A DNA stretch of 21,354 bases from IMG/VR virus record IMGVR_UViG_3300028653_000062, positions 1-21,354 of that record, one strand, 5' to 3'. The DNA comes from a virus. Of this stretch, positions 1,498 to 20,726 are shown one piece after another. The first letter of the stretch is position 1. Each line of letters begins with the position of its first letter. The position numbers and the translations under genes are program-made. The notes under the pieces are model-generated. The model saw only the letters and a program-made list of their open reading frames with translations. It was not told where the DNA came from and did not search any database.

Positions 1498-2067
1498 CTA
1501 TCGGTATTCCGGCGCGACGTACTTTTGACCGCAGAACCTGAACACATCCTCTTCGCTGTGGGCGATCAGCATCTCGTCGGTTCTTTCATCCATGACGCCG
1601 CAGCCGGATACTTTGAGCGAGCGGCCGAGGTTGTTGGCGCCGTTCGTCAACTTCATGCACGTCTCCCGGCTGCCCGTGCGGACAACCAGCGACACCCACC
1701 AGTTTTCCAGTGTGGTGGCGAAGAAGTCGATCGGGATGCCGGTGGCGACATGGACGGCGAACTTGTTCTTGTCGCCCCACATGGGAGTGCCCTTGGCGTT
1801 GAGGCGCTTCGAGAGAATTTTGGCTTCGACCAACGAATTCAGCAATGGTTCCGCCAGATCGACATCGACATCGGCTCCCGGAAATAGACCGCGCTTCTTC
1901 TTTGCAAAATACGGAACATACAGAATCTCCACGTCGCCCACATACCGTTTACAGCGCCGGACGCTCCCGGCCACCTGCAACTTCTCGCAGTAGGGCGCGA
2001 TCTCCAGCACCATCTCGGCGGCCACCTTGGAAGCGACGGTCAACGGATAATCTCTGCGGTTGCTCAT
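1498..2067 (-). CDS. Minimal DNA polymerase family X (pol beta-like) nucleotidyltransferase
   Basis: This 189-aa protein has the palm and thumb signatures of family X polymerases. They are an AGSVRR motif (33-38), GDVEI (44-48) giving two metal-binding acids (D45, E47), IPIDFF (111-116) giving the third (D114), a TGS element (131-133) in the usual thumb position, and a C-terminal EEDVF...YVAPEYR segment like that ending PolX cores. The second acid is Glu where pol beta has Asp. No N-terminal 8-kDa/HhH lyase domain and no C-terminal PHP domain is present, so it is a stand-alone core that probably fills short gaps or adds nucleotides. The ATG has a strong Shine-Dalgarno site (GAGGAA, three bases upstream). 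It lies antisense to the packaging genes, 7 bp after a co-oriented small gene, and its stop faces the terminase stop. Polymerase versus other nucleotidyltransferase activity is not decided. Confidence 0.85.
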   Translation of the reverse strand: MSNRRDYPLTVASKVAAEMVLEIAPYCEKLQVAGSVRRCKRYVGDVEILYVPYFAKKKRGLFPGADVDVDLAEPLLNSLVEAKILSKRLNAKGTPMWGDKNKFAVHVATGIPIDFFATTLENWWVSLVVRTGSRETCMKLTNGANNLGRSLKVSGCGVMDERTDEMLIAHSEEDVFRFCGQKYVAPEYR

Positions 2068-2074
2068 GGGTTCC

Positions 2075-2311
2075 TCAATTCATTGACGAATAACAGACGC
2101 AAGTTGGCATGCAGCAGACAACTGCAACGCTGCAGCCGAGTTCTTCTGGGACGTTCTTGCCGTACCGCTGGAACAGTTCCGACCACAGAGCTTCCGACAT
2201 CAGGAGCAGCGGCTTGCTTGGCGTCGGCCGGCAGTGGATCCAGACCCCAACCCCGGCGATCCCGGTTTCCCGGATTCCATCCATCACTTCTTCCACTTCC
2301 TCGTCGGTCAT
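2075..2311 (-). CDS. Small protein of unknown function, upstream of PolX-like gene
   Basis: This 78-aa protein is not recognised. The chosen ATG overlaps the TGA of the preceding 28-aa ORF in an ATGA arrangement, suggesting translational coupling. A longer version from a GTG at 2362 is possible but has no ribosome site. The N-terminus is acidic ([12 protein letters not shown]). The middle (GVGVWIHCRP...KPLLLMSEALWSELFQRYG) is mixed alpha/beta, and the C-terminus is Cys-rich (C60, C66, C67, C71, C73), which could bind metal. Its stop is 7 bp before the PolX start, so the two are probably co-transcribed. Sitting beside a polymerase core it may be an accessory factor, but nothing in the sequence proves this. 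Confidence 0.55.
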   Translation of the reverse strand: MTDEEVEEVMDGIRETGIAGVGVWIHCRPTPSKPLLLMSEALWSELFQRYGKNVPEELGCSVAVVCCMPTCVCYSSMN

Positions 2312-2394
2312 ATTCGCCCCAGGAAAAAGATCACGGCCAGGAGGATCGCCAGGATTAGGCACACGGACAGGATGAAGCCCAGGTCGGAATTCAC
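2308..2394 (-). CDS. Putative 28-aa single-helix membrane peptide
   Basis: This GTG-started short ORF encodes 28 residues: a short polar start (MNSDLG) and then an almost purely hydrophobic run ([20 protein letters not shown]) long enough to cross a membrane once, ending in RI. Its TGA overlaps the ATG of the next gene in an ATGA junction. The GTG falls six bases after a CATAAT -10-like hexamer, so the mRNA could be leaderless; no Shine-Dalgarno site is visible. A second in-frame GTG lies 15 bases upstream. Small membrane peptides are common in phages (holin-like, superinfection or regulatory), but no specific role can be assigned. It could be a chance ORF; the hydrophobic pattern and the stop-start overlap argue for a gene. 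Confidence 0.45.
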
Positions 2395-2400
2395 GCGGTA

Positions 2401-2429
2401 ATTATGCACCGCAATTTGGAGGGAGGCAA
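2401..2429 (-). promoter_or_regulatory. Sigma70-like promoter for the minus-strand PolX cassette
   Basis: On the minus strand a TTGCCT hexamer (plus coordinates 2429-2424) is followed after 17 bases by CATAAT (2406-2401). The expected start point falls on or next to the GTG at 2394, implying a leaderless message. An imperfect inverted repeat, GCGGT-N8-ACCGC (2395-2412), covers the -10 element and could be an operator. Assignment rests only on hexamer match, spacing and position. Confidence 0.4.
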
Positions 2430-2444
2430 ATCGTGGTGTAGATT
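2416..2444 (+). promoter_or_regulatory. Sigma70-like promoter facing right, divergent from the PolX promoter
   Basis: TTGGAG (2416-2421), a 17-base spacer and TAGATT (2439-2444) form a modest promoter. The expected start is about 2450-2451, which coincides with the ATG of the zinc-ribbon ORF. That gives a leaderless start for that ORF and a 37-base leader for the DUF6496-like gene. It interleaves with the minus-strand promoter at 2401-2429, so the two could exclude each other or share a regulator. Confidence 0.35.
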
Positions 2445-2450
2445 ATTCCC

Positions 2451-2738
2451 ATGGAAGCACAACAACCCACCAATAAGGAGACTCAAAATGCCGTTGACCC
2501 CAGGAAAGAGCCGGGACGTGATCTCCCACAACATCGTGGAAATGATGAAGGCGGGGCACCCGCAAAAGCAGGCGGTGGCAGCGGCCCTGCACAACGCGGG
2601 CAGTCCGAAGAAGCCTGCGAAGAGTGCAAGAGGCCATTCGCCCCGGAGGCGATGAGGTGCCTGCGGGGCGGCCGCACGCTCTGCATACCGTGCTATGAAT
2701 TCGAGATGCGCGCGGAGCGCAAGAAGGCCGCGCCATGA
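2451..2738 (+). CDS. Putative zinc-ribbon protein overprinting the DUF6496-like gene
   Basis: This frame encodes 95 residues. The C-terminal 40 carry a paired-Cys motif typical of small zinc ribbons or treble clefs: C56-x2-C59 (CEEC) and C78-x2-C81 (CIPC), followed by a charged tail. The first pair is encoded inside the end of the 55-aa gene at 2488-2655, in another frame. The ATG at 2451 has no Shine-Dalgarno site but lies at the predicted transcript start. The only later in-frame ATG (2652, ATGA overlap with the previous stop) would remove the first CxxC. The TGA overlaps the next gene's ATG. The first 50 residues are low complexity and may merely be the shadow of the other gene. Frameshifted synthesis from the upstream frame is an alternative. 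Confidence 0.45.
2488..2655 (+). CDS. Small basic DUF6496-like phage protein
   Basis: This 55-aa protein begins [16 protein letters not shown] and continues [17 protein letters not shown]. That pattern (Lys/Ser-rich start, ISxNIxEM, then GxPQxQAxAxAL) is recognisable from a family of very short proteins encoded among phage structural genes (DUF6496-like, from memory). The rest is a Lys/Arg/Pro/Ser tail ending in RRR, as in nucleic-acid-binding peptides. The start is well marked: AAGGAG lies 7 bases before the ATG. It is the first Shine-Dalgarno-led gene of the rightward small-gene cluster, and its 3' half is overlapped by the zinc-ribbon frame. The role of the family is unknown. Confidence 0.8.
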
Positions 2739-2914
2739 AATACCTCGGCATGATCGAGGAACTGCTTGCTCTGGAAGATGGACTCTCCGCGTGGGAGACC
2801 GACTTCCTCGACAGCGTGTATCTCCAGACCCACCAGGCGACAAAGGACACGCTCACTGACAAGCAGCGGGCGGTCCTTGAGAAAATTTGGAACAGGAGAC
2901 TGGGGACGCGATGA
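2735..2914 (+). CDS. Small acidic helical protein, unknown function
   Basis: This 59-aa protein is predicted to be mostly alpha-helical. An acidic N-terminal helix (MIEELLALEDGLSAWETDFLDSV) is followed by a Lys-rich one (LTDKQRAVLEKIWNRR). The combination 'W..DFL.S......LT.KQ..VLEKIW' resembles short helical modules seen in many phage early or accessory proteins, but I cannot name the family. The ATG overlaps the TGA of the zinc-ribbon frame (ATGA), and the TGA overlaps the ATG of a six-codon mini-ORF leading to the next gene. This suggests coupled translation in one operon. Confidence comes from the tight packing and coherent protein rather than homology. Confidence 0.65.
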   Translation: MKYLGMIEELLALEDGLSAWETDFLDSVYLQTHQATKDTLTDKQRAVLEKIWNRRLGTR

Positions 2915-2931
2915 AAGGAAGTTCGATATGA
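2911..2931 (+). other. Six-codon mini-ORF bridging two ATGA overlaps
   Basis: ATG at 2911 (overlapping the TGA at 2912-2914) opens six codons ending in a TGA at 2929-2931 that overlaps the ATG at 2928. The ribosome site of the 2928 gene lies inside it. It may be a coupling relay or a coincidence of close packing. Confidence 0.35.
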
Positions 2932-3323
2932 CACTACAAGATTTCATCAAAATCATCGAGCGGCACTACGAGATTTCAAGACAGCGACTGAGTAAGTCGC
3001 ATTCCGTACACGAAGCGCGAGCCCGAAACGAGCAGGCGCTGCAGTTGAGCGAGATATTGGAGATGGCTCGCTCGATCACTCCAGCTACTCCCGAACTGAC
3101 CTGGCCGGATGGGTGGTATTTTTGGAATTCGACTTCATCAAAGTGGGAGATAAACCCTCAAGGTAGTACAAGCGGGGACAGTTCATGGATTGAGTTGGAA
3201 ACCGGGATTGTATGTCAGGCGTGTATCGGAGAGGCAATACGTTTTCGGCCTCCAATCTTCCCCCGCGTCGGCAAGCCGATGGCCGACGAAATGCGGGAGA
3301 TCGTGGCGGCGGAACAACTTTAG
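2928..3323 (+). CDS. Hypothetical protein
   Basis: This 131-aa protein is not recognised. The first 50 residues form a helical, charged segment (LQDFIKIIERHYEISRQRL...), followed by a Trp-rich beta-like part (TWPDGWYFWN...SKWEINP) and a single CQAC pair near residue 95. The start is the ATG at 2928, preceded by AAGGAA at 2915-2920. That site sits in a mini-ORF of six codons (2911-2931) whose TGA overlaps this ATG. The gene is 8 bp from the next one, so it belongs to the same rightward operon. Base composition is a little more AT-rich than the structural genes. Confidence 0.65.
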   Translation: MTLQDFIKIIERHYEISRQRLSKSHSVHEARARNEQALQLSEILEMARSITPATPELTWPDGWYFWNSTSSKWEINPQGSTSGDSSWIELETGIVCQACIGEAIRFRPPIFPRVGKPMADEMREIVAAEQL

Positions 3324-3331
3324 GAGACCAA

Positions 3332-4225
3332 ATGCAAGACCTCGTTCAGGCAATCGTGAGGGCGGTTCAGATGATCTGCCCCAAAGGCATTCATGTCTCG
3401 GGCGCAATAGGCGCCGACGGCACCGGTGCCATTGAGCTTAGAAAGGCCGAACCAGAGTCGGCCACGACGCAGAGAGGGCTTGCTTCCGGAGACACCGATG
3501 TTTACGCCGAGTCACTCCGCAAGCTCAAGGCCGCGAACGATCGGCAGGCAGCCATCATCACGAAAATGCAGGAGGCCGAGAAGGAATCCGCGGAAGGCTA
3601 CGCCATGGAACTCCTTGTTCGGCAGAACCGGATCGCCGATCTCACGGAATCTCTCGAACTCCTCGCCCAAAGCGTTATCGGAATGAAGCCCCCCGAGAAC
3701 TGCGACTTCAACTGGCTTTGCAAAGTCGCCTCTGCGAACCGGAAGGCGCATGAGGCCGCCAAGGCGGAGCGGACGCCATCGACGCCCATTCCGCCAGAGG
3801 TTCAGGAGGCGTTCGCCATGATCGCCGTGGAGTGCCACAATGCAATGGCCATCAAGAAGTTCAACGCGGCGCACGATGACGGGCATACCGATAAGTCCCT
3901 GGCGATAACGGCGGCGTTCCTGCTGGAGGACTACTGCGAACCAGGCCGGCAAGAGGAGTGGGCCATCAACCGCCACACCCTTTTGAAGAAGGCCGGGCGT
4001 GCTCCGTGGCCCGCCGCCTACGCCCATCGCAAGTTCAATGACAGCCTGGAATTGCAACGTCTGGTCATTGCCGCTCAGTTCACCGTGTCCGAGATTGCCC
4101 GCGTACTTCGCGCCCAGCGAGTTGTTGCACGGAATGCAACAGGTGAAAAGAAGAACCCGAACCCGAAGTTCACACCCTGCGATGGACCGGCGATGGAGGG
4201 GGCGGACGAGCCGAAAGGGCGATAA
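3332..4225 (+). CDS. Hypothetical phage protein with coiled coil and conserved C-terminal helical domain
   Basis: This 297-aa protein starts at the ATG preceded by TAGGAG; the frame is open upstream but has no better start. Residues about 58-110 are heptad-like and charged (LRKLKAANDRQAAIITKMQEA...), a probable coiled coil. Residues about 180-270 follow a pattern I know from many small phage proteins: AHDDGH, then a helix with LAITAAFLLEDY, then APWP, then LQRLVIAAQFTVSEIARVLRAQR, i.e. 'HDD.H...LA.AA..Y...WPW...R.LV.AAA...AEI.R..R'. That domain is widespread among phages and has no established function. The C-terminal tail is Pro/Lys-rich and probably disordered. It is the last gene before the terminator at 4285. 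Confidence 0.7.
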   Translation: MQDLVQAIVRAVQMICPKGIHVSGAIGADGTGAIELRKAEPESATTQRGLASGDTDVYAESLRKLKAANDRQAAIITKMQEAEKESAEGYAMELLVRQNRIADLTESLELLAQSVIGMKPPENCDFNWLCKVASANRKAHEAAKAERTPSTPIPPEVQEAFAMIAVECHNAMAIKKFNAAHDDGHTDKSLAITAAFLLEDYCEPGRQEEWAINRHTLLKKAGRAPWPAAYAHRKFNDSLELQRLVIAAQFTVSEIARVLRAQRVVARNATGEKKNPNPKFTPCDGPAMEGADEPKGR

Positions 4226-4230
4226 TCCCC

Positions 4231-4258
4231 TTGATATTCCTGGGCGGTGTGGTAGTAT
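4231..4258 (+). promoter_or_regulatory. Promoter-like sequence just before the intrinsic terminator
   Basis: TTGATA (4231-4236), 16 bases, TAGTAT (4253-4258) matches sigma70 sites at nine of twelve positions. A transcript from about 4265 would meet the terminator at 4285-4308 after roughly 45 bases. It is therefore either a chance match, an attenuated promoter or the source of a very short RNA. Confidence 0.3.
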
Positions 4259-4284
4259 TCTCCCGCTTGGTCAGATTTCCGCGC

Positions 4285-4308
4285 CCCCCGGACACCCGGG
4301 GGTTTTTT
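4285..4308 (+). terminator. Rho-independent terminator of the 2.4-4.2 kb operon
   Basis: A perfect 7-bp GC stem (CCCCCGG, 4285-4291; CCGGGGG, 4296-4302) encloses an ACAC loop and is followed directly by six T residues (4303-4308). It lies 60 bases after the stop of the preceding gene and just before the TTGACA promoter at 4315, so it separates two transcription units. Confidence 0.85.
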
Positions 4309-4314
4309 CTGCGC

Positions 4315-4342
4315 TTGACAAACGAAACCACTTAAGTACTTT
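4315..4342 (+). promoter_or_regulatory. Sigma70-like promoter of the putative structured RNA
   Basis: A consensus TTGACA (4315-4320) is followed after 16 bases by TACTTT (4337-4342), which keeps the important TA...T positions. The expected transcript start is about 4349. It begins seven bases after the T-tract of a strong terminator, as expected for an independent unit. Confidence 0.6.
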
Positions 4343-4348
4343 TGCTTA

Positions 4349-4722
4349 CGCGGATTTTATGACCGAGCCCGGTCTGAGGACCGGCGACACTCCAGAAGTG
4401 GCCCATGGAGCAATAATTGGGGCCGGCAGAGAACGGGGTCAGTTGAGAAACACCCAACCCGTTCGCCGCGCTTCAGCGCGAAACGGCATTGTTGATCCAA
4501 CTCAACCTGAAAATCCCTGGCTATAACCCGCCAGTGGAATGCGAAAGCATGGGGAGCGCCAGCCGCACTACCCCACCGTGAAAAAAGGAGTAACTGCGTG
4601 TCGCGTCCCCTGCCGCAAGGCGAGGCCGGCGTTGCTGGGTCGTCCCGGAGAAATCTGGGCTGGTGCGATCCCTCATCCCTCATTGGTATCGCCGAAGGAC
4701 TCCCTGCGGTGGGGGTCTTTCT
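4349..4722 (+). ncRNA. Putative structured noncoding RNA (about 370 nt), class unknown
   Basis: The stretch lies between its own promoter and its own terminator and has no convincing gene. It contains many local helices: CCGGTC-TGAG-GACCGG (4369-4384); CTCCA/TGGAG (4390-4394/4406-4410); GAACGGG/CCCGTTC (4431-4437/4458-4464); CGCGC-TTCA-GCGCG (4467-4480); CTGGC/GCCAG (4517-4521/4530-4534); ATGC-GAAA-GCAT (4539-4550); GCC-GCAA-GGC (4612-4621); CCCGGA-GAAA-TCTGGG (4644-4659); GCGAT/ATCGC (4665-4669/4688-4692). Three of these have GNRA tetraloops. TCAGTTGAG (4439-4447) can pair with CTCAAC-c-TGA (4501-4510), a possible pseudoknot across the GAACGGG hairpin. I see no tRNA, tmRNA tag, RNase P or intron core. 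The helices were paired by eye without energies or covariation. A small protein gene at 4598-4759 is a competing reading. Confidence 0.5.
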
Positions 4723-4759
4723 GGCTGCATCTTTCCTAAGCCCTATTGGTTTTTCGTGA
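4598..4759 (+). CDS. Possible 53-aa protein with hydrophobic C-terminus (competes with ncRNA reading)
   Basis: A GTG start has a good Shine-Dalgarno site (AAGGAG, seven bases upstream). The ORF encodes a basic N-terminal half and a hydrophobic second half (SSLIGIAEGLPAVGVFLAASFLSPIGF) that could span or associate with a membrane. Against it, the ORF runs through the GNRA hairpins and the terminator hairpin of the putative RNA, its codon pattern is unremarkable and I recognise no homologue. It could also be a translated ORF inside a dual-function RNA. Confidence 0.25.
   Translation: MSRPLPQGEAGVAGSSRRNLGWCDPSSLIGIAEGLPAVGVFLAASFLSPIGFS
4695..4722 (+). terminator. Intrinsic terminator ending the putative RNA
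   Basis: AAGGACTCCC (4695-4704) pairs with GGGGGTCTTT (4711-4720), ten pairs with two G-T wobbles, around a TGCGGT loop. The T residues at 4718-4720, which close the base of the stem, and CT after them form the tail. It is weaker in U content than the terminator at 4285, but it lies between the putative RNA and the next promoter. Confidence 0.55.
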
Positions 4760-4785
4760 ACAGCAACACAACAATGTACTACAAT
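4757..4785 (+). promoter_or_regulatory. Promoter for the small basic gene and probably the portal operon
   Basis: TGAACA (4757-4762), a 17-base spacer and TACAAT (4780-4785, five of six consensus positions) precede the gene at 4803. The expected start is about 4792, giving a leader of about 11 bases that would truncate or sit within the ribosome site AAAGGAA (4790-4796). The exact start therefore needs mapping. Confidence 0.45.
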
Positions 4786-4802
4786 CAAAGAAAGGAATTA
4801 AT

Positions 4803-5060
4803 ATGAAAACACGACGCAATTTCTGGAAAGCTGTGAAGCCTGGAACTGGACTGAAGGAGTCAGAGCTCTCTGTGCTTGCCGCTTTGAGAAGACAGCGGAA
4901 AGTGAGTGAGCGGGATCGGAGTTTTATTGGTCGACTGGCAGCGCGGGAGCGGCGACGGAACGAACGGGGCAATCTGGAGCGGTCGATTTCGGCGTCGTTT
5001 GACTCGGATAAGAGCCGGGTGACCATCCTGGAAGTTCCCGCCCAGGAAAGAATTCATTGA
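4803..5060 (+). CDS. Small basic protein, unknown function
   Basis: This 85-aa protein starts at the ATG with AAAGGAA seven bases upstream; the longer frame back to 4746 lacks a site. It is strongly basic and Arg-rich (TRRNFWKAVKPG...LRRQRKVSERDRSFIGRLAARERRRNERG), with a likely helix over residues 18-55, then a short beta-like end (SRVTILEVPAQER). Such a protein could bind nucleic acid or the acidic surface of a partner. It sits directly before the portal gene (34 bp), apparently first in the head operon. I do not recognise a family. Confidence 0.6.
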   Translation: MKTRRNFWKAVKPGTGLKESELSVLAALRRQRKVSERDRSFIGRLAARERRRNERGNLERSISASFDSDKSRVTILEVPAQERIH

Positions 5061-5094: not shown

Positions 5095-7107
5095 ATGCCA
5101 CTGGACACCCATGATCCCGAAGCGATGTCGCAAGAGGTTCAGCGCGCTGAGGAATTCCGTAAAAAGCACACCGCCCGCACCCGTGAGATCATCGACCGGT
5201 ACAAGGGGAACTGGTATCGGGAGGATTATCAGGGAGAGGCGACCCCCGAGAATCTTGTGGCCAATTATGTGACATTCATGCTGCCCGAGTTGTCGTTCAC
5301 CATTCCCCCGATCACGGTCAAGGCCATGCGGCCGGTGTCACACAAGGCTATCGCCGATTTTATGACGATGGGGATGCGCTCGTGGCTGGGGGGTAACAGG
5401 TCGTGGGTTCTGGATCATCGGGACGTTGTGCGGGACCTGCTCATGGGGTTTGGGTGCATGAAGGTGGGGATGGAGCCGCGCGACTCATACAACGAGGTGG
5501 GGCAGGCGTACAGTGATGGGGGAAGACTGACGCCGTTCGCGTGCCGGGTTCCCCCGGACCATTTGATCCTGGACCCGCGGTGCGAGGCGCCGCAGTACGC
5601 TCGGTTCCTGGGCGATTCCTACTGGCGTGATCTGGACAGCATCCTGGAGAATCAGGAGCGATGGAATCCGGACGAGCCGGACGCGATGGAGAAGCTGGAG
5701 AGTTGGGCCGAGTCAGACGGGACGAGTCAGGACGCCATGAGCAGCCGGGAGCGGGCGGTGAAGTTCGGTCCTTCCGGTCCCCGCAAGCGGGTGATGCTGG
5801 TGGACCTGTGGGTTCCAGAGACGGGGGAGTTGCTGACGCTGGCCAAGAGCGACAGCCAGACCACATCGGACGTGGTGCTGCGGCGGGAGCAATACGAAGG
5901 CCCCAAGAGCGGCCCCTATCAGGTCTTCGGCTGCTACTCGGTTCCGGGCGATCCCTACCCGATTGGCCCGTTGCAGTTTGCGATGGAGCAGTTCGAGGAA
6001 ATGCAGAGCCAGATCAACTCCGTGTCGGAGGCTTCGGCCAACTACAAGCGGTTCGTCATTGTGGACGCGGCGGCGGTGGACGCACAGAACGCGGTGGCGA
6101 CGGCGAAGAACGGGAGCGTGGTGGCCATCCGGGGAGCCAGCGGAGCGGGGATCAACCAGGTGGAGATGGGCGGGGCGCACAGCGAACAGTTGACCTATGT
6201 GGCGGCCCTGCGGGAACGCTTCGACCGCGTGATGGGCGTGAGCGACGCGCAGCGGGGCGTGGCGGCGGGAAAGACGGCCACAGAGGCGGGGATCGTGGAG
6301 AAGAACGTAGACGCCCGCACGGACTGGATTCGGCAGTGCGTGGTCCTGGGCACGAACGGGGTGTTGGAGAAGGTGGGATGGTATCTGTTCTACAACCCGA
6401 CCGTGGTGCTGGAAGTGAGCCACACGGATGATGTCACCGGGCAGACGACCGAAGGCTTGTTCCTGGGCGGCCCGCAGCCGGGTCAGGACGCGGATTGGAT
6501 GAGCTTCAACCTGGACATTTCCAGCGATGCCCTGTCGCGGCCGGATCAGGCGGGCGACCTGGCCAAGGCGATGCAGTTGTTCACGCTGGCCCCGCAGGCG
6601 ATGCAGTTGTTGACGCAGATGCCGATGCTCAACGTGCGGTGGCTGCTGAACCAGATCGGCGAGGCGATGGACATAGAGAATCTGGCGGACCTGCTCATCA
6701 ACCAGCAGGTGCTTCTACAGATGGGACAGACGGCGCAGCAGCAGGCGATGTTCGGGGGCATGGGCCAGCCGGGCCAGTTGCCGGGGAATCTGAACCCGCA
6801 GTTGCAGCAGTTCCTGGCCGGGCAGACCAACCAGCAGAACAACGGCTGGATGCAGCGGGGCGCGGGAGGGTTTGAGTCCTCTCCGGTGACGATGCCGGCG
6901 GCGCAGCCCCTCTTCAATCCCGCCATGGCCCCGTTCTCCGGAATGGGTGGCCTGGCTCCGCAGAAGGGCGGCGGCACGGCCGGGTCCACGGGTCCGCTGG
7001 CGGGGATGATGGGCATTGGAAATAGAGGCGTCGCAAGACCGGCGTCCAAGATAAGGCAGATGACACAAAACAGGCCACGGCCGCAAATGCAGCCGGCCGG
7101 GAGTTGA
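5095..7107 (+). CDS. Portal protein
   Basis: This is a 670-aa portal: the ring at the head vertex through which DNA enters and to which terminase and connector dock. The N-terminal part (LVANYVTFMLPELSFTIPPITVK, about 54-76), the clip/stem region and a helical segment with GVSDAQRG...TATEAGIVEKN...R (about 380-405) match the general pattern of large portal proteins. The length fits portals of short-tailed phages with a C-terminal extension. Residues from about 525 onward are rich in Gln, Met, Gly and Pro, consistent with a barrel or flexible crown. The ATG has only a weak upstream purine run (AAGTGGA, over ten bases away), perhaps offset by coupling to the previous gene. The next gene starts four bases after the stop. 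Confidence 0.83.
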   Translation: MPLDTHDPEAMSQEVQRAEEFRKKHTARTREIIDRYKGNWYREDYQGEATPENLVANYVTFMLPELSFTIPPITVKAMRPVSHKAIADFMTMGMRSWLGGNRSWVLDHRDVVRDLLMGFGCMKVGMEPRDSYNEVGQAYSDGGRLTPFACRVPPDHLILDPRCEAPQYARFLGDSYWRDLDSILENQERWNPDEPDAMEKLESWAESDGTSQDAMSSRERAVKFGPSGPRKRVMLVDLWVPETGELLTLAKSDSQTTSDVVLRREQYEGPKSGPYQVFGCYSVPGDPYPIGPLQFAMEQFEEMQSQINSVSEASANYKRFVIVDAAAVDAQNAVATAKNGSVVAIRGASGAGINQVEMGGAHSEQLTYVAALRERFDRVMGVSDAQRGVAAGKTATEAGIVEKNVDARTDWIRQCVVLGTNGVLEKVGWYLFYNPTVVLEVSHTDDVTGQTTEGLFLGGPQPGQDADWMSFNLDISSDALSRPDQAGDLAKAMQLFTLAPQAMQLLTQMPMLNVRWLLNQIGEAMDIENLADLLINQQVLLQMGQTAQQQAMFGGMGQPGQLPGNLNPQLQQFLAGQTNQQNNGWMQRGAGGFESSPVTMPAAQPLFNPAMAPFSGMGGLAPQKGGGTAGSTGPLAGMMGIGNRGVARPASKIRQMTQNRPRPQMQPAGS

Positions 7108-7111
7108 CACC

Positions 7112-7828
7112 ATGGGTGAATTCGACAAGCGAGACGGCGTGATCTGTCAGTTCGTGGGCGATGCGTCCAGCGGCCCGCAGGGTGCGGGGTACAAGATCAG
7201 GACCTTCCGCGGCAAGACCAAGGCGGAGTTGGCGACGATCACTCTGAGCAGCCTCGTGCGCGCGGCAGTGGCGACGGGCGACCCCATGGCCACGTTGCCG
7301 GGCGCGCAGTACACATTGAATCCAGACCTTCTGAACATGATGGTTGTCACGGCCACGAGCGCAACGGCGCACGGCCTGGCCATCGGCAGCGTGGTGACGA
7401 TCACGGGGGCCTCGGCCGGGTACAACGGCACGTTCACCGTCACCGGCATTACCAGCCCCACGGTGTTCACCTACAACCAGCCCGGGCAGGCTGCGGGCAC
7501 GGCCGGGGCGGCAGGCTACCTTACCTCGATCCCCCCCAGTAAGCGGCTGATGATCCACTCGTTCACCCTGGTCTGCGACGGCGCGGCACAGGTGATCGTG
7601 TTCGATGACGTGGACGCCGCGGACGATCAAACCGTGACCGCCATCGGCGCGGCGGGAACAGGCGGCACGGGGAAATTGCTCCTGACCGGATCCTTCGCGG
7701 CCAACGCGGGAATCAGCCACTTCCTGCCGGTGCCGTTCGGGGTAAGCCCTGGAAAGCGGCTTTCGATCAAGTCGAGCGCCTCCACGAACGTCGGTTTCAC
7801 GGGGTTCGGACATCTGGTTGACGTGTAG
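7112..7828 (+). CDS. Putative structural protein with 'AHGL...NG' beta domain
   Basis: This 238-aa protein starts at an ATG with GGGAG eight bases upstream. Residues about 78-135 hold a beta-rich module: TATSATAHGL, GSVVTITGA, YNGTFTVTGI, TVFTYNQPG. The same layout recurs in the genes at 14856 and 15880. The C-terminal half (140-238) is also beta-rich, with Gly/Ala turns (GAAGTGGTGKLLLTGSF) and a final HFLPVPFG...KRLSIKSS segment like capsid-surface or tail-attached beta sandwiches. The position after the portal suggests a virion component such as a head fibre or decoration, but the family is not recognised. Confidence 0.65.
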   Translation: MGEFDKRDGVICQFVGDASSGPQGAGYKIRTFRGKTKAELATITLSSLVRAAVATGDPMATLPGAQYTLNPDLLNMMVVTATSATAHGLAIGSVVTITGASAGYNGTFTVTGITSPTVFTYNQPGQAAGTAGAAGYLTSIPPSKRLMIHSFTLVCDGAAQVIVFDDVDAADDQTVTAIGAAGTGGTGKLLLTGSFAANAGISHFLPVPFGVSPGKRLSIKSSASTNVGFTGFGHLVDV

Positions 7829-8406: not shown

Positions 8407-10536
8407 ATGTCGCTCGTCACTAAAGTCATATTTTTGACCTCTGGGACCAGTTGGATTGTGCCGGCGGATTGGAATAACGCCAACAACACCGTGGAGTGCA
8501 TTGGCGGAGGTGGAAGTGGTGGGAGTCGTGGGGGAGGCGGGGGTGGTGCTTATTCGTCTGTATCTAATCTGACGCTTTCGGGGACCATTGCTCACCAAGT
8601 TGGCGGGGTAGCTCAAGACACGTTTTTCAACGGTACAGCGTGTTCCGCTGGAAATTGTTCAGTCGGCGCAAAGGGCGGAGTTACCGCGACTTCTGATACC
8701 GGCGCTGCTGGCGGGGCGTCGTCTGGTGGGGTTGGAGGAACAAAACGATCGGGGGGCAAAGGTGGGAATGCTCCGCGTGTGGGGGGTGGGGGTGGCGCGG
8801 GTGGGCCACATGGTGACGGGAAGGCTGGTGGAGATGGGTACAATCCGCTCACGTCCGGTGGTGGTGGTGCCGGTGGTGGTGGTTCGGTCGGCAATCCAGG
8901 AACGTCAACAAATGGCGGCGCAGGAGGAAATGGATGGAACGGTAGCGGAGGAGGTTCGGGCGGACCAGGTGCTGGTGTGGCTGGACAGGCGGGAACGGCT
9001 CTAACAGGCTCAGGTGGTGGTGGTTCCGGCAATGGAGGAGGAGGCGGCAACGGCGCTACAGGTTCGGAATGGACATCGAACCCCGGTGGTGCCGTGGCTG
9101 GAGCGGGAGGTGCGGGCGGCGGTGCTAACGGTACTTATAGCGCCGGCAACGGAGGTCTGTACGGTGGTGGGGGTGGTGGGTCAAACAATGTTGGGTCCCA
9201 AGGCATCGGCGCTCAGGGCATCATCGTCATCACCTACCTTCAGCGCGACATCACTGGGCCGACGCCCGTCAGCGGGACGGTTGCCACCAGCGGGACTTCC
9301 CTCGACCTCACCCTGACGGACGCCGATTCGCCACCGATCCTCCCGACTCACGATCCAACCGGGTTCTCGATCACCGCCGATGGGATACCAATATCCGTGG
9401 TCGGCATATCGCAGGCCGGATCGGTATATACCTTCACACTCGCCACGATCATCTGGTCCGGCCAGGTTGTGAAGGTTGCCTACGACAGCGGGACGGGGAA
9501 CGTCACCGACAGCGAGGCGTACTCCCACAATCCGATGACCTCGTTCTCGAACTTCGCCATCACCAATAATTCCACGCGGACGGTGACAACTGCCACGGTG
9601 GGAACGGGCAAGGATTACACCACGCTTGCGGCGGCGCTGATCGCCATGGCCGCTGCCGAAACGAGCGACGTGGTGCTGAACTGCTACGGACCCGATGACC
9701 TGCTCGACTTCGACCTGAGCCTTGTGCCTGCCCACACGTCGGCCCTGCACATCACGGCCATAGACGCCCACGACGGGAAGTACCACAGCGATATGGACGT
9801 GGCGACGGGCCGCGGGGCATGGGGCGAGAACGTCTACAACAGTGGTTTGCTCGTGAACACGGCAACCATTGTGACTGGGATGCGCTTCTTCGGGACGGCG
9901 GACATAGAGACATCGGGCCCTGGCGCATTAGGAATTACCTTTGACCGCGTGATCTTTAACCCACTCAGCATACGGAATGGGTGGCCCGTCTTCTACTTGG
10001 GCGTGGGGTACAATGCGGTCTACAATCTAGTCTTCAACAATTCGCTTCTGGCCGGACCTTCTCCATCTCCGATTGTTTCTTTCTATGACGGAACGAGCAT
10101 CGCCCAGATATCCGTAGCTTTCAATGGCTGCACTCTGCTCGCCCTGTCTGGCTATCCTGGTTGGGGGATTGTCTCGCCCGAAACGTCCACGGCAACAATC
10201 GCGGTCAACGATACCATCATCGCCAGCTTGAACGGATTCGTCTTCAACGCGACGGACGCCGCGTGGTCGCCTGGGGTCTACACTTTCAGCCACTCCCTGC
10301 TCTACAAGGCCGCGCCGCCTGCGGGACTGATGAGCAGCGTAGCCAATGGCGACCCCTCCCTGCCCAACGGATCGCCCGCCATCGGCACCGGTGCGAATAC
10401 CGGACTCACCTATGACATTATCGGCACCGCCCGTCCCGGACCAGCGGGGTACGACATTGGAGCGTGGGAGGGGCCTGGGACCGTCGGACCCTCTACCGGC
10501 CACCCGAACCTCCTGCTCCTCATGTGGGAGGGATAA
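8407..10536 (+). CDS. Gly-rich / SwmB-like / beta-helix fibre or adhesin
   Basis: This large protein (709 aa) has three parts. Residues 1-278 begin with a motif typical of Gly-rich phage fibre domains (SWIVPADWNNANNTVECIGGGG), continue as long Gly runs and end GIIVITYL, as those domains do. Residues about 281-392 look like a SwmB-type surface domain (VSGTVATSGTSLDLTLTDADSP, FSITADGIPISVVGI, GQVVKVAYDSGTGNVTDSEAYS). Residues about 395-700 look like a right-handed beta-helix, ending with YDIGAWEG, common at the end of such repeats. It is probably a receptor-binding or surface-decorating fibre. The start has GGGG six bases upstream. Its position between portal and capsid genes is unusual for a tail fibre, and the Gly-rich part uses GGT/GGA far more than the neighbours' GGC, hinting at acquisition. 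Confidence 0.75.
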   Translation: MSLVTKVIFLTSGTSWIVPADWNNANNTVECIGGGGSGGSRGGGGGGAYSSVSNLTLSGTIAHQVGGVAQDTFFNGTACSAGNCSVGAKGGVTATSDTGAAGGASSGGVGGTKRSGGKGGNAPRVGGGGGAGGPHGDGKAGGDGYNPLTSGGGGAGGGGSVGNPGTSTNGGAGGNGWNGSGGGSGGPGAGVAGQAGTALTGSGGGGSGNGGGGGNGATGSEWTSNPGGAVAGAGGAGGGANGTYSAGNGGLYGGGGGGSNNVGSQGIGAQGIIVITYLQRDITGPTPVSGTVATSGTSLDLTLTDADSPPILPTHDPTGFSITADGIPISVVGISQAGSVYTFTLATIIWSGQVVKVAYDSGTGNVTDSEAYSHNPMTSFSNFAITNNSTRTVTTATVGTGKDYTTLAAALIAMAAAETSDVVLNCYGPDDLLDFDLSLVPAHTSALHITAIDAHDGKYHSDMDVATGRGAWGENVYNSGLLVNTATIVTGMRFFGTADIETSGPGALGITFDRVIFNPLSIRNGWPVFYLGVGYNAVYNLVFNNSLLAGPSPSPIVSFYDGTSIAQISVAFNGCTLLALSGYPGWGIVSPETSTATIAVNDTIIASLNGFVFNATDAAWSPGVYTFSHSLLYKAAPPAGLMSSVANGDPSLPNGSPAIGTGANTGLTYDIIGTARPGPAGYDIGAWEGPGTVGPSTGHPNLLLLMWEG

Positions 10537-10577: not shown

Positions 10578-11000
10578 ATGCCCACTCGCTACGATTATGA
10601 GTGTCAGAACTGCGGCAGCCGAGTCGAACTCGTGCGCTCCATGAATTCTGACCCCACGATCACCGAGAAATGCCCACGTTGCCACGAAACGACCCTTTCC
10701 CGCCGGTGGACGATGCCCACGACCGCCCTGGAAGCAATCGACCCCTACCGCGAGCGCCGGGCCGATGGGAGCCGCATTCCGCACTACTCCGACCGATTCC
10801 CCTACGTTTCCAACGCCATGCCCTTCGGCGGCAACCTCGCCGGCGGCGGCGCTCATGTCGGCCGGATGAAGAAGATTCTGGTGGAGAGCGCCAAGCACGA
10901 GGAGAGATTGCGGCATGTGCACGGCATGAGTGGCGAGAAGGACATCGGAAAGCAGGTCCATGAACCCGACCCGAATTACGGGAAGGTTCTCCGAGATTGA
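10578..11000 (+). CDS. FmdB-like zinc-ribbon protein
   Basis: This 140-aa protein begins MPTRYDYECQNCGS and continues to EKCPRCHE, the layout of FmdB-family zinc ribbons: C9-x2-C12 and C32-x2-C35 as likely zinc ligands. The remaining hundred residues are charged and helical (GRMKKILVESAKHEERLRHV), with no domain that I recognise. No Shine-Dalgarno site precedes the ATG, whose upstream bases are AT-rich (TAACATCAACAA). A weak TTGCTT-18-TAACAT promoter-like pair precedes it, so a short leader is possible. It stands immediately before the scaffold and capsid genes, suggesting an assembly or late-regulation role, but this is only positional. Confidence 0.7.
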   Translation: MPTRYDYECQNCGSRVELVRSMNSDPTITEKCPRCHETTLSRRWTMPTTALEAIDPYRERRADGSRIPHYSDRFPYVSNAMPFGGNLAGGGAHVGRMKKILVESAKHEERLRHVHGMSGEKDIGKQVHEPDPNYGKVLRD

Positions 11001-11019
11001 CACTTTTTGAGCGCCCGAT

Positions 11020-12174
11020 ATGGTTGAGACGAACCCAAACTCCGGAAGCGAAGATGTGACTCCGGCCCCGAGTCCGCAGAGCGAATCCTCGCCCAACTCG
11101 GCAGAGCAGACCCAAGCCACGACCGACGGCGACAAGGGGGCCTTGCCACCTGCTTTGTCCGCTGACGAGCGTGATGTCAGGGCCTTTGCGATGCTCGACG
11201 AGGGCAAGGGACGCGATGTAGCCCGGAAGGAGTTGGCAGCCGCCACCCCGGATAAGGAATCTCAACTCGCGGCAGAGTCCGTGCCTGGGCCTGCTTCAGA
11301 TGCTAATGTCGAAGAGGTTGTCACCCATGATGGCCTCGATGACAAGTCCATCCAACAGCTTTCCCAGGCCGGGCTACTGCTCGACGCGGCCGATTGGAAC
11401 GTGATGCCCCAGAAGGCGCGAGACCGGATTCTCGCACGAGCAAAGGAGACGATCGCTGAACGCTCAAGGGCGTATCAGCAGGAACAAGCGAACCAACGCG
11501 CTCGCAACGAGCGCGGTCAGTTTACCGCTGGCGCGGCAAGCGCACAGACGGATAAGGCACAGTCGCAGGGCGGCGGCAAGTCCGAGCCTGCGAAACCCGG
11601 CCAAGGCGATTTGGCCAGCAAGGTCCAGAAGATCAAGGAGATGTTCGGCGATGAAGCCGCGGCACCCTTGGCGGAAGTTCTGGAAGAGCTGGACAAGCGC
11701 GTAGCCGAAGCCTCGGCTCCGAAGGACGACCCGCGCATGGACTACATGATGCAGCGGCAAGTTGCGATGGACGAGGCAGCCGCCAGAACCTCACTTTCAG
11801 CCGATCTCGCTGATCTCACCCCGCCCAAGGGCGCAGCACCCGAAGTGGTGCAGGCGTCCAACGAGGCTTGGCAGGTCATCCGGGAAGAGGCCCAGGTGTT
11901 GGCTCAGGCGGCCGTTACAGCCGGCAGGCCGTGGACGTGGCAGGAATGCCTCGAACGCGCCGGCCGGATGTTGTACGAACCCTTAATCCGTCAGCAGGAA
12001 CAGGCCAAACTTGCCGCCACGCGGAAACAGACGCTCCGGGCGACTCCGGAGCGCTCCAACCGTCAATCCTCCCCGAACCGGGTCGAGAGCAGCGAGGAGC
12101 GCGATCGTCGCGCCTTCGAGGCCCTGGACTCCGGGAAGACACGCGACGACGCAAGAATGGCCATCGCCGGCTGA
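11020..12174 (+). CDS. Scaffold-like head assembly protein
   Basis: This 384-aa hydrophilic protein, directly upstream of the capsid gene, fits a scaffold: a long Ser/Pro/Glu/Gln-rich start, extended helical charged stretches (WNVMPQKARDRILARAKETIAERSRAYQ...) and a helical end. Scaffolds fill the prohead interior and leave or are cut before packaging. A 25-residue motif occurs twice, at 49-73 (DERDVRAFAMLDEGKGRD...) and at 359-383 (EERDRRAFEALDSGKTRD...), with 15 identities. Residues about 210-232 are a likely coiled segment (VQKIKEMFGDEAA...EVLEELDKR). The ATG has only a weak GAG upstream. Identity rests on position, length and composition, not on a diagnostic motif. Confidence 0.65.
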   Translation: MVETNPNSGSEDVTPAPSPQSESSPNSAEQTQATTDGDKGALPPALSADERDVRAFAMLDEGKGRDVARKELAAATPDKESQLAAESVPGPASDANVEEVVTHDGLDDKSIQQLSQAGLLLDAADWNVMPQKARDRILARAKETIAERSRAYQQEQANQRARNERGQFTAGAASAQTDKAQSQGGGKSEPAKPGQGDLASKVQKIKEMFGDEAAAPLAEVLEELDKRVAEASAPKDDPRMDYMMQRQVAMDEAAARTSLSADLADLTPPKGAAPEVVQASNEAWQVIREEAQVLAQAAVTAGRPWTWQECLERAGRMLYEPLIRQQEQAKLAATRKQTLRATPERSNRQSSPNRVESSEERDRRAFEALDSGKTRDDARMAIAG

Positions 12175-12218
12175 CCCTGGGCCGCAGCGCCCGGTGAATC
12201 AGAAAGACGAGGCCCCGT

Positions 12219-13301
12219 ATGGCGGGTAAAGCACTTGCCAGTTTTGCGGATTTCGTTGCCGTAACCAACGAACGCCAGTTGACCCCTTCAACAGAAATGA
12301 TTAACGATGCGGTGAAGAACACCTACACCCTTCGTGACGCACTCAAGGGACGCGGATTCGATGAAGTGATCCAGTCCGGAGCCACCATCACCGACCGTAT
12401 CCAACTCACGGCCGGAACCCAGTTCGGGTTCTACAAGCCCAACGATCAATTCAGCCCCATCATCGAAGACACCGTGACCAAGCAGATTTGCCCCTGGCGG
12501 TTCGCCAAGGACCTCTGGTCCTGGACCGATCAGGAACTTGAACTCAACGAGGGCGACCGCTTCGTGATGTTCAAGAAGCTCCGGGACACAAAGAAACAGG
12601 CCAGCTACGTCAGCATGTTCAATGGCCTGGAAGATGCAGTCTGGGCAACACCGGACTACGCCTCCATGGAAGCCACCGGCGAGCAGGTGTCGCAGCGGCC
12701 CTACTCCATCCCGGCCTTCATCACGGAGACCGGCCTGACGGCGTGGGAGGCCAGCAGCCACAACCTCATGCAGGTCAGCACCGCGACGAACGCCAAGTGG
12801 CGCAACCAGATCGTCAACTACCAAGCCGCCGACCCCGATGGCACGCTGGTCAGCGCCTTCGAGGAATCGTGGCTCCGCCTTAAGTTCGAGGCTCCCGACA
12901 CCAAGGAGCAATACTTCAAGGAGACCAAGTTCTCCAAGATGAAGATTTACGCTCCCTTGGACGGCCGGAAGATGGCCACGCGCCTCCTGCGCCAGACCAA
13001 CGACCGGAACTACCCGACCAACGATCTCGGCTACGCGGTCGAGGACCCGACGTTCGGGAACATTCCGATCAAGTGGGCGCAGCCGCTCGACTCGGCCGGG
13101 TACACCACGGGCCAGCCCCGGTTCTTCTGGGTCAACCTGGAGTTCCTGGTGCCCGTCTTCCACGCCAAGCGGTACTTCTACCAGACCGACCCGATCAACG
13201 GCGGGCACACGCAGCCGTTCTCGTGGGTTGTGTACTGCGACATCTGGTACAACTGGTTCTGCCGGTCGCGCTACCGCCAGGGCATCGTGGTCCCGGTCTG
13301 A
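12219..13301 (+). CDS. Major capsid protein
   Basis: This 360-aa protein is the likely shell subunit. It follows the scaffold-like gene, has GAGG seven bases before the ATG, and resembles capsid proteins of short-tailed phages: an N-terminal arm (FADFVAVTNERQL...INDAVKNTYTLRDALKGRG), a long helix-rich middle with many Trp and Tyr residues (WRFAKDLWSWTDQELEL), and a C-terminal beta-rich region (FFWVNLEFLVPVFHAKRYFYQTDP...YCDIWYNWFCRSRYRQGIV). I cannot assign a named capsid family from memory, and the fold (HK97-like) is inferred from the gene set. A small hairpin (12177-12194) lies just upstream in the leader. Confidence 0.78.
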   Translation: MAGKALASFADFVAVTNERQLTPSTEMINDAVKNTYTLRDALKGRGFDEVIQSGATITDRIQLTAGTQFGFYKPNDQFSPIIEDTVTKQICPWRFAKDLWSWTDQELELNEGDRFVMFKKLRDTKKQASYVSMFNGLEDAVWATPDYASMEATGEQVSQRPYSIPAFITETGLTAWEASSHNLMQVSTATNAKWRNQIVNYQAADPDGTLVSAFEESWLRLKFEAPDTKEQYFKETKFSKMKIYAPLDGRKMATRLLRQTNDRNYPTNDLGYAVEDPTFGNIPIKWAQPLDSAGYTTGQPRFFWVNLEFLVPVFHAKRYFYQTDPINGGHTQPFSWVVYCDIWYNWFCRSRYRQGIVVPV

Positions 13302-14855: not shown

Positions 14856-15815
14856 ATGGCCGGACTCACCTTCACCTTCGCGGACCTGCAAGCCTCGGTC
14901 TTCCACGCCCTGCACGCGCAGGCCGGCAGCGGGACCACGGTGTCTGTCACCGACGCGGTTCAGGTTGCCAACGCGAAGCAGACGGTGAACCGGGCGCTGG
15001 ACATGCTGGTCCAGATGCACCCCTGGCGCTTCCGCACCAAGAACCTCTCCATAGACGTGGTTCAGACCGCGATCACCAGCCTCTCCCGGACCACCAACGT
15101 CATCACCGTCACCCAGACGGCCCACGGCTACGGTCAGGGGGCGGCTGTCGAGATCATCGGCGCGCTGGACAGCGCCTTCAACGGCCAGTTCATCGTCGCC
15201 GACGTACTCACTCCCGACACCTTCATCCTCCGCCAGCTTGGCCCGGACGCCGTGGCCACCACCCCCGGCTTCACGATCCCCGGCGCGCTCCTTCTTCCCA
15301 GTGACTTTGACTCCCTGTTGAGCCTCAAGTCGGCCACCAACAGTTACCGCGACGTGTTCCCCACCACGATGGACGACTTGTGGCTCCGGCGCCAGTACAT
15401 CTACGGCAACACGGCCTACGAGACCTGGTTCGCGCTTAACTGGCAGCAGCAGACCAGCGTCACCTCCGCGCCGCGAGCGGTGTTGGAGGTCTACCCCATC
15501 CCGCAAGCGGCAGGCGTCGGGCAGTTTGTGGGCAGCTACCTCCGGATCATCCCGAGCCTCTCCGCCTCGACAGACGTGCCGGACATCCCCACGCCGTACC
15601 ACGGCCTGCTGATGACGCTCTGCCGGGCGCTCGCGGTGTCCAACGAGGAGGATCGGAGCGGATCGGACTGGGACTTGTTCGGACGGATGGTGATCGACGC
15701 GGCGGCGAACGACGGAGCATCGCAAGGACCGATCGTGGCGCAGTTGAGGAACACGATTAACCGCGGCTGGAGACCTAGTCCCTTCTTTCCGGCAGGACGT
15801 ATACAGACCACTTAG
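14856..15815 (+). CDS. Head-tail adaptor-like (connector) protein
   Basis: This 319-aa protein starts at an ATG with GGAAAG upstream. The first 65 residues are helical (TFADLQASVFHALHAQ; VNRALDMLVQMHPWRFRTKN), and the 'NRAL..L.....PWRFR' pattern is like that of phage adaptor proteins of the SU10 or T7 gp11 type, which join the portal to the tail. Residues about 79-139 hold the AHG/NG beta module shared with the genes at 7112 and 15880 (TQTAHGYGQGAAVEIIGA, FNGQFIVADV, TFILRQLG). A helical C-terminal domain follows (YHGLLMTLCRALAVSNEEDRS...WDLFGRMVIDAAANDG). The position before the nozzle gene supports a connector role. Confidence in the exact name is moderate. Confidence 0.6.
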   Translation: MAGLTFTFADLQASVFHALHAQAGSGTTVSVTDAVQVANAKQTVNRALDMLVQMHPWRFRTKNLSIDVVQTAITSLSRTTNVITVTQTAHGYGQGAAVEIIGALDSAFNGQFIVADVLTPDTFILRQLGPDAVATTPGFTIPGALLLPSDFDSLLSLKSATNSYRDVFPTTMDDLWLRRQYIYGNTAYETWFALNWQQQTSVTSAPRAVLEVYPIPQAAGVGQFVGSYLRIIPSLSASTDVPDIPTPYHGLLMTLCRALAVSNEEDRSGSDWDLFGRMVIDAAANDGASQGPIVAQLRNTINRGWRPSPFFPAGRIQTT

Positions 15816-15879: not shown

Positions 15880-16668
15880 ATGTTTACCAACAGAGTCAGG
15901 AAAATCATCGAGGATTTTAAGGTGGACCTGCCCAACGCGGGCGTGTACACCGACATTGCGGGGCGCATCTACGGCGACGCGCGGCAACTGCTTCGCCTGC
16001 TTCTTGGCATGCGTGACGGGACCGGTTACTCGTCCGACCGACGCCGGATGGAGTTCGTGGCCATCGAGGAGCAGATTCAGACTGACATTGGCGGGACCTC
16101 CTACCAACTCACAAAGCAGATTCCACCCAACAGTATTATCATGGCCTGCTGCCTGAACTTCGACACGGCCATCACTCTCGCTACGGCGGTGAAGGTTGGC
16201 GTGGGACTCTCGACGGCCGGGACGACTCACCTCGGCGACTGTGTGATCTCTGGAACGGTGATGACCAAGAACACGCCGACGACGGGCATTACCCCGGTCG
16301 TGGCCGCCGCAGTCCCCGTGGTTATTGGAACCGGACTCGTGCGAGCCAGCGGCACGACCACTATGACCTCGGCCGCGCACGGCCTGGTTGTGGGCGACAA
16401 GTTCCGCATCACCGGATGCAGCGACATCACCTTCAACGGCGACTATACGGTCCTGACTCGGCCGACAACGGGCACGCTGACGTTCGCGCAGGCCAACCAG
16501 CCGGACGCAACGCCGACCACGCCGGGCTATTTCTCGCCCTACATCAAGCTCAACCTCGCCTGCCTGGCGACAGACGGATCGGCGGCGGGTACGTTCAACG
16601 GCGCGGCCCAGAAGGTTCGAGTGCAGGCGATCTACAGCCACATTTCCGACCTGCAGCCCGCGGCGTGA
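15880..16668 (+). CDS. Structural protein with AHG/NG beta module
   Basis: This 262-aa protein starts at an ATG with GAGGAG eight bases upstream. Residues 1-60 are charged and helical (RVRKIIEDFKVDLPNAGVYTD...RQLLRLLLGMRDG). The rest is beta-rich, including the third copy of the shared module at about 155-217 (TTMTSAAHGLVVGDKFRITGC, FNGDYTVLTRP, TLTFAQANQP). It also carries repeated Thr/Val/Ala strands (AVPVVIGTGLV). The protein lies between adaptor and nozzle and so may be a tail-hub or fibre-attachment component. No known family recognised. Confidence 0.6.
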   Translation: MFTNRVRKIIEDFKVDLPNAGVYTDIAGRIYGDARQLLRLLLGMRDGTGYSSDRRRMEFVAIEEQIQTDIGGTSYQLTKQIPPNSIIMACCLNFDTAITLATAVKVGVGLSTAGTTHLGDCVISGTVMTKNTPTTGITPVVAAAVPVVIGTGLVRASGTTTMTSAAHGLVVGDKFRITGCSDITFNGDYTVLTRPTTGTLTFAQANQPDATPTTPGYFSPYIKLNLACLATDGSAAGTFNGAAQKVRVQAIYSHISDLQPAA

Positions 16669-19703: not shown

Positions 19704-20726
19704 ATGGCAGCGGCGAAGTACCAAGGCGGCGGTTCAAACAGTGGCGGCTACCAGAATGACCCGGACTACGCTGCGTGGCTCGCGGCAGGACAGGACAACT
19801 CCGGCCTCAACGACATCGACGGATCGAGGGGCAAAGCCTTCTACCAGTGGAAGCAATCCCAGACCAGTCCCGCTCCAGCCGACACTGAAGGCCCAGTCAA
19901 CGACTCCAGCCTCGAACCCTTGAAAAACGCGGACTCGGGCACGTCGGCCGGCGGCGACAACTCCGTAGCCTCACCCGGCGCTGGGGGTGGATTCATGCAA
20001 GCCGGCACTGGCGGCATCGACCTCACTACGGGCCTGCCTATCGGCTACGGATCACAGGGCCAGAGCAGCGGCGGTGGTGGCGGCATGGGCGCCGGCAGCC
20101 TCGGCGGCGGAACTTCCGGAGGCGGCGGTGGCGGATCGGGTATGGGGGGCGGCCTCGGCGGCGGCGGTGGGTCCAGCGGCGGCGGCACTGGATCGGGCGC
20201 GCGGACAGGGACATCGGCCACCAACGGCATGGGCCTTGTGCCCGGCCAGATTGCCAGCGTTTCACCGACGAACCCCAACCAGGGCAAGATGGCGGCCGGC
20301 GACTACCAGAAGGCATCCCAGGCGTACCTCGACTTCATCCAGAAGAACATCGCGGGCATGAACCAGCAGAACGCCACCATGTACAAGGATGCGATGAATT
20401 TGGCCAGCGGGAGCCAGGATACAGCGAAGGAACTCCTCAAGCAGCAGGAGCAGGAGAACGAGTCGAAGATCAGCATGGACTTCGTGAACCGCGGCCTGAT
20501 GAGCGGCACGGGGCTTCCATCGGCGCTCACCCAGAGCCAACAAGCATATGCTCTGGCCGAGAACAATCTCACCGAGAAAGAGCGGCAGGCCAAACTCGCC
20601 GTCCTCCAGAACCAGATCGACACCATGAACAAGACCGCCGGGATGGGCCTCGACTACTCAGCGAAGGGCACCCCGTCTGGATCAACGCTATTGCCCTACG
20701 TCTATCAGGCGTCGGGCGGGAGGTAG
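19704..20726 (+). CDS. Gly-rich protein with helical C-terminus, possible internal virion protein
   Basis: This 340-aa protein starts at an ATG preceded by AAAGGCGG. It has a polar start (YQNDPDYAAWLAAGQ), then a long Gly/Ser linker with runs of GGGG at about residues 110-170, then an alpha-helical part from about 195 (YQKASQAYLDFIQKNIAGMNQQNATMYKDAM; LLKQQEQENESKI; NLTEKERQAKLAVLQNQIDTMNK). A flexible Gly linker joining an N-terminal segment to a coiled helical end fits an ejection or internal-head protein, but that is positional inference. The next gene begins four bases on. Confidence 0.6.
   Translation: MAAAKYQGGGSNSGGYQNDPDYAAWLAAGQDNSGLNDIDGSRGKAFYQWKQSQTSPAPADTEGPVNDSSLEPLKNADSGTSAGGDNSVASPGAGGGFMQAGTGGIDLTTGLPIGYGSQGQSSGGGGGMGAGSLGGGTSGGGGGGSGMGGGLGGGGGSSGGGTGSGARTGTSATNGMGLVPGQIASVSPTNPNQGKMAAGDYQKASQAYLDFIQKNIAGMNQQNATMYKDAMNLASGSQDTAKELLKQQEQENESKISMDFVNRGLMSGTGLPSALTQSQQAYALAENNLTEKERQAKLAVLQNQIDTMNKTAGMGLDYSAKGTPSGSTLLPYVYQASGGR

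Follow-up and report, generated by a model that had tools for sequence, protein, structure and literature searches.

Phage noncoding RNAs are poorly sampled. Among those described, ROOL and GOLLD are RNAs of phages and prophages that often lie near tRNA islands, one ROOL being 659 nt long and many GOLLD over 800 nt (PMC12286853). The element considered here is a candidate RNA stretch between the packaging and portal genes of an uncultured phage, found in an IMG/VR virus record whose entire 21,354 bases form the window of this analysis. It resembles ROOL and GOLLD in being phage-encoded and set apart from coding genes, and in having GNRA loops and a possible pseudoknot; however, both are larger than this element of about 385 nt, which has no Rfam match, has no tRNA in its window and adjoins the portal gene. 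The phi29-type packaging RNA (pRNA) is likewise a small phage RNA, and our element lies near packaging genes, but it is longer than pRNA, matches no Rfam family and is missing at this locus from relatives with the same portal family. Like the attenuators and riboswitch-like leaders of bacteria, the element has a terminator-like hairpin before an operon and, further upstream, a helix that can compete with it; unlike them, it has no known ligand-binding motif, its competing helices do not exceed chance and separate promoter-like sites lie downstream.

Search for known families and homologues

The covariance models of Rfam 15 gave 0 matches at the gathering threshold over the whole window, and at E ≤ 10 the best sub-threshold match within 4200-4830 scored 17.2 bits, where 70 are required. 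The first-pass annotation, a reading of the letters alone, had proposed this search, and the outcome is consistent with its view that the RNA belongs to a class it did not recognise. It had also invoked ROOL, GOLLD and pRNA; here the model tests fail, and nothing supports the likeness beyond the presence of the element in a phage. Membership in ROOL or GOLLD was rejected for want of a covariance-model match and of a tRNA neighbourhood (no tRNA or tmRNA was found in the window, a 21 kb contig that is possibly a fragment). A phi29 packaging RNA was rejected because the Rfam library, which we take to include the phage pRNA model, gave no match and because the element is not conserved across the phage group (L002 to L005 below, some of these contigs being partial).

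Searching phages, plasmids and E. coli genomes with the element by blastn returned short chance matches or none, and no homologue. Nor was one found when the RNA region was translated in two frames and compared with viral and genome contigs, or by pattern scans; the two-frame scan amounts to a crude DNA homology search that finds close homologues only. The element is known from one sequence, and its lack of homologues is weak evidence, since all of these searches would miss a diverged RNA.

Genomic setting and relatives of the phage

The main genes around the element are as follows.

103-1488: large terminase (terL), with a PHROG terminase match
1498-4225: small genes on both strands
5095-7107: portal-like protein
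12219-13301: capsid protein

More structural genes lie elsewhere in the window. Coding is otherwise dense, and the 577 bases at 4226-4802, from the last upstream stop at 4225 to the next start at 4803, hold no credible large gene. The terminase, portal and capsid proteins had 0 matches among 50,697 named phages, so the phage lineage is an undescribed one. Three other features of the gene layout were recorded. The gene at 1498-2067 (- strand), which lies after the terminase and before the structural operon, encodes a DNA polymerase beta thumb domain (PF14791, E 1e-6); it is an unusual accessory gene, perhaps for a PolX-like nucleotidyltransferase. A similar short domain with the pattern AHGL..G..V.I.G...NG...V recurs at 7112-7828, 14856-15815 and 15880-16668, all matching PHROG 9998, which suggests that one virion module is used repeatedly in three separate structural genes. 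The 709-residue product of 8407-10536 starts with a long stretch rich in glycine, matches SWM_repeat weakly and below the cutoff, and is probably a fibre or tail appendage.

Relatives were sought by scanning viral contigs with the portal, terL, capsid and 3332-4225 proteins. The portal scan of IMG/VR found four relatives only: L002 and L003, both about 53% identical, and the more distant L004 (35%) and L005 (26% over a short part). A scan with a two-sequence capsid alignment returned L003 alone, and bacterial genomes yielded no relative. In L002 the terL reading frame overlaps the portal frame, in L003 the interval between them is filled by small ORFs, and in L004 and L005 open reading frames run right up to the portal; neither L002 nor L003 has the element between terL and portal. 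A search of the L002 to L005 records, some of them partial contigs, gave only matches of 18-26 bases, those in L004 being weak and judged to be chance, and Rfam found no family in the stretches scanned. Because the element is missing here from L002 and L003, the closest relatives by portal, we regard it as accessory and not as a conserved part of packaging or of the portal; packaging in the wider phage group would then not need it. TTGACA...AGTACT promoters in L005 resemble that of the element but precede ordinary small ORFs and were set aside. The record of a distant relative, L012, has at 3930-4275 (- strand) two TTGACA...AGTACTATAG promoters that are nearly identical; about 300 bases separate them, and each precedes a different small ORF.

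Promoter and terminator signals around the element

The signals flanking the element, all on the + strand, are listed below with the stretch that they would delimit.

4285-4308, +: intrinsic terminator ending the small-gene operon upstream, seven G-C pairs and then T6
4315-4342, +: likely promoter, TTGACA (4315-4320), 16 bases, TACTTT (4337-4342)
4349-4735, +: putative transcript body with predicted ends, no Rfam match and no clear coding signal
4694-4721, +: terminator-like hairpin of 11 pairs, -17.5 kcal/mol, a partial match in the terminator scan with a weak T tract
4757-4785, +: promoter-like TGAACA, 17 bases, TACAAT before the 4803 gene, matching 9/12

The first-pass annotation had described a terminator, a TTGACA/TACTTT promoter, a second terminator and a new promoter, and most of this arrangement was recovered. 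The GC-rich stem at 4285-4302 (-14.8 kcal/mol), followed by its T6, is the top-ranked terminator of the window. Pairs of TTGACA and TANNNT at normal spacing occur twice in the window, where shuffled sequences lead one to expect 0.03. The site at 4315-4342 is one of them; its -10 box matches at only 3/6 positions, a weakness that left the promoter out of our general promoter-scan list. The other instance, TTGACA-N16-TATGGT at 10997-11024, has the ATG of the 11020 ORF inside its -10 box; either the start is wrong, or the promoter is internal, or the site matches by chance. Because of this start codon and the weak -10 box, we consider the promoter at 4315-4342 likely from its sequence, not certain. 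The promoter before the 4803 gene was found as described, and another promoter-like site lies at 5057. The second terminator held up in part: the hairpin at 4694-4721 is strong, but its U tract is poor, most of the T residues falling within the stem, and terminator-like sites across the window are no commoner than in shuffles. Just 5' of the 4285 terminator there is also a TTGATA-N16-TAGTAT site with a TG before the -10 (4231-4258), from which a transcript would be very short.

Folding of the putative RNA

The predicted structural features, again on the + strand, are the following.

4349-4386, +: 5' hairpin with an inner GACCG/CGGTC stem, pair probability about 0.6 (outer) and 0.8 (inner)
4431-4464, +: hairpin GAACGGG/CCCGTTC with a loop of 20, pair probability 0.9; the loop could pair with 4501-4506
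4465-4487, +: hairpin adjoining the preceding one without a linker, in the local fold only
4501-4506, +: CTCAAC, possible pseudoknot partner of GTTGAG at 4442-4447, competing with a hairpin at 4491-4506
4514-4574, +: three linker-less hairpins (4514-4538, 4539-4550 with a GAAA loop, 4551-4574), supported by the folding z of 4510-4592
4644-4659, +: GNRA hairpin CCCGGA-GAAA-TCTGGG within a stem at 4637-4671, probability 0.93 or more

The 391 bases at 4345-4735 fold at -156.7 kcal/mol, with a z of -2.1 against shuffles (-1.4 for the opposite strand). Over about 385 bases the z is -2.95 when the pairing span is limited to 40 and -1.8 to -2.1 without that limit; because the signal grows under the limit, the folding excess is one of local hairpins, chiefly those of 4510-4592 (z from -2.75 to -3.1, P ≤ 0.003). 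Of 15 control intervals of equal length that do not overlap, 14 have a higher local value. The three hairpins at 4514-4574 appear to be the best-supported structural core, with predicted pairing of 0.9-1.0 when 4349-4592 is folded; in the full-length fold 4539-4574 has competing partners, and the folds preferred by parts of the RNA differ from those of the whole. The description of the RNA as highly structured, with at least nine local helices, overstates the case: the global z is near -2, the possible strong helices number 32 against 36 in shuffles and so do not exceed chance, one control interval of coding sequence (12000-12386) does equally well against shuffles, and no homologue was found with which to assess covariation.

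The three GNRA loops noticed at the outset are all present, the others being ATGC-GAAA-GCAT at 4539-4550 and TGCC-GCAA-GGCG at 4611-4622. GNRA hairpins whose stem has 4 pairs or more are expected 0.31 times, giving P 0.0035 by shuffling for a feature chosen after it had been seen. The pseudoknot, placed by the first-pass annotation at 4439-4447 with 4501-4510, reduces to a 6 bp helix of 4442-4447 with 4501-4506; its coordinates were slightly off, and by our estimate it is not significant: chance alone would give about 0.11 such helices between the loop and the 36 bases that follow (15 x 31 position pairs / 4^6). One further match was judged to be chance: 4540-4557 (TGCGAAAGCATGGGGAGC) agrees at 17/18 bases with a stretch of E. 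coli 16S rRNA, with P about 0.007 against shuffles for a match picked post hoc. Antisense pairing with the translation starts of the window genes gave no strong candidate among the 17 tested with 30 mononucleotide shuffles each, the best score being z -2.9 at 19704.

Alternative explanations

Two of the alternatives depend on the following features.

4585-4590, +: AAGGAG, Shine-Dalgarno-like, 7 bases before GTG 4598
4598-4759, +: putative coding ORF of 53 codons with a hydrophobic C-terminal half, codon score -0.07
4607-4617, +: CCCCTGCCGCA, which by helix search can form 11 pairs with 4705-4715, breaking the 4694-4721 hairpin

The ORF could be the gene of a small protein, possibly a membrane protein, with about 250 nt of structured leader on its 5' side that may control its translation; we think this unlikely, though next in order after a noncoding RNA. 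Its AAGGAG is a good ribosome-binding site, and the folding signal is clear 5' of it, at 4349-4592; such a site with an ORF of at least 50 codons arises in 8% of shuffles. The codon score is like those of the nearby presumed small genes 2404 (-0.10), 2910 (-0.06) and 4803 (-0.08) and above 92% of random open frames, but it is below 95% of gene chunks, GC3 is 0.58 against about 0.8 in most genes, and the hydropathy peak of the product is only 1.8. Searches of phages, Pfam, PHROGs and PDB gave no relative of the product, and two GNRA stem-loops and the strong hairpin fall within the frame. A cis-acting leader or attenuator for the portal operon that follows, in which 4694-4721 would halt transcription unless 4607-4617/4705-4715 or 4571-4580/4705-4714 forms, seems to us rather improbable. 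The mutually exclusive helices are nearly equal in full-RNA energy (-156.7 and -154.8 kcal/mol), the candidate directly precedes the structural operon and a short leader ORF is possible; yet four helices this strong, where 2.25 are expected (P 0.17), are nothing unusual for the composition, the promoter-like sites at 4757 and 5057 would let transcription start past the attenuator, and its hairpin has the poor U tract noted above.

Least probable of all is that the element has no RNA function: it would be GC-rich intergenic DNA, either decayed or newly acquired, with hairpins that mostly reflect its composition. The chance-level helix number, the equal folding of the coding control, the failure of every homologue search and the absence of the element from relatives all fit such an origin; the placement of promoter and terminator, the local z near -3 and the GNRA excess speak against it, and phages seldom keep hundreds of unused bases.

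A possible accessory noncoding RNA

We find the likeliest single reading to be an accessory, separately transcribed phage noncoding RNA of about 375-385 nt, to which we give somewhat less than an even chance; the small protein with a structured leader, the cis-acting attenuator and the absence of function follow in that order. It is favoured by the strong terminator and then the TTGACA promoter immediately upstream, by the 577 bases between genes in a dense contig, by six-frame codon scores that are low over 4240-4740 with no clear coding signature in any frame, by the local folding together with the three GNRA hairpins, and by the better folding of the + strand than of the - strand relative to shuffles. 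Against it stand the single known sequence, the chance helix number, the modest global z, the weak -10 box and second terminator, the overlap of its 3' half by the 4598 ORF with its good ribosome-binding site, and the want of an antisense target that stands out in the window. The separate structured RNA of the first-pass annotation is thus retained as the leading interpretation, in keeping with the empty Rfam search, with its structure toned down and some probability left to the 4598 ORF. The element is real as anatomy and unproven as an RNA class.

As a noncoding RNA, the element would be transcribed from near 4349 by a host sigma-70-type promoter, judging by the promoter sequence, and folding statistics suggest that short hairpins follow one another in a chain, three of them forming a tight core at 4514-4574. 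The transcript would end at or just past the 4694-4721 hairpin. It would then most likely act in trans, and our guess is that its exposed loops bind the ribosome or a protein, from either the host or the phage. That it represents a new structured-RNA class of about 380 nt, accessory beside the portal operon of an undescribed lineage and acting in trans during infection, is a doubtful proposition. At present the element is an orphan candidate whose value hinges on homologues; a discrete transcript with a structured core beside a structural operon could reveal a new regulator or an RNA scaffold.
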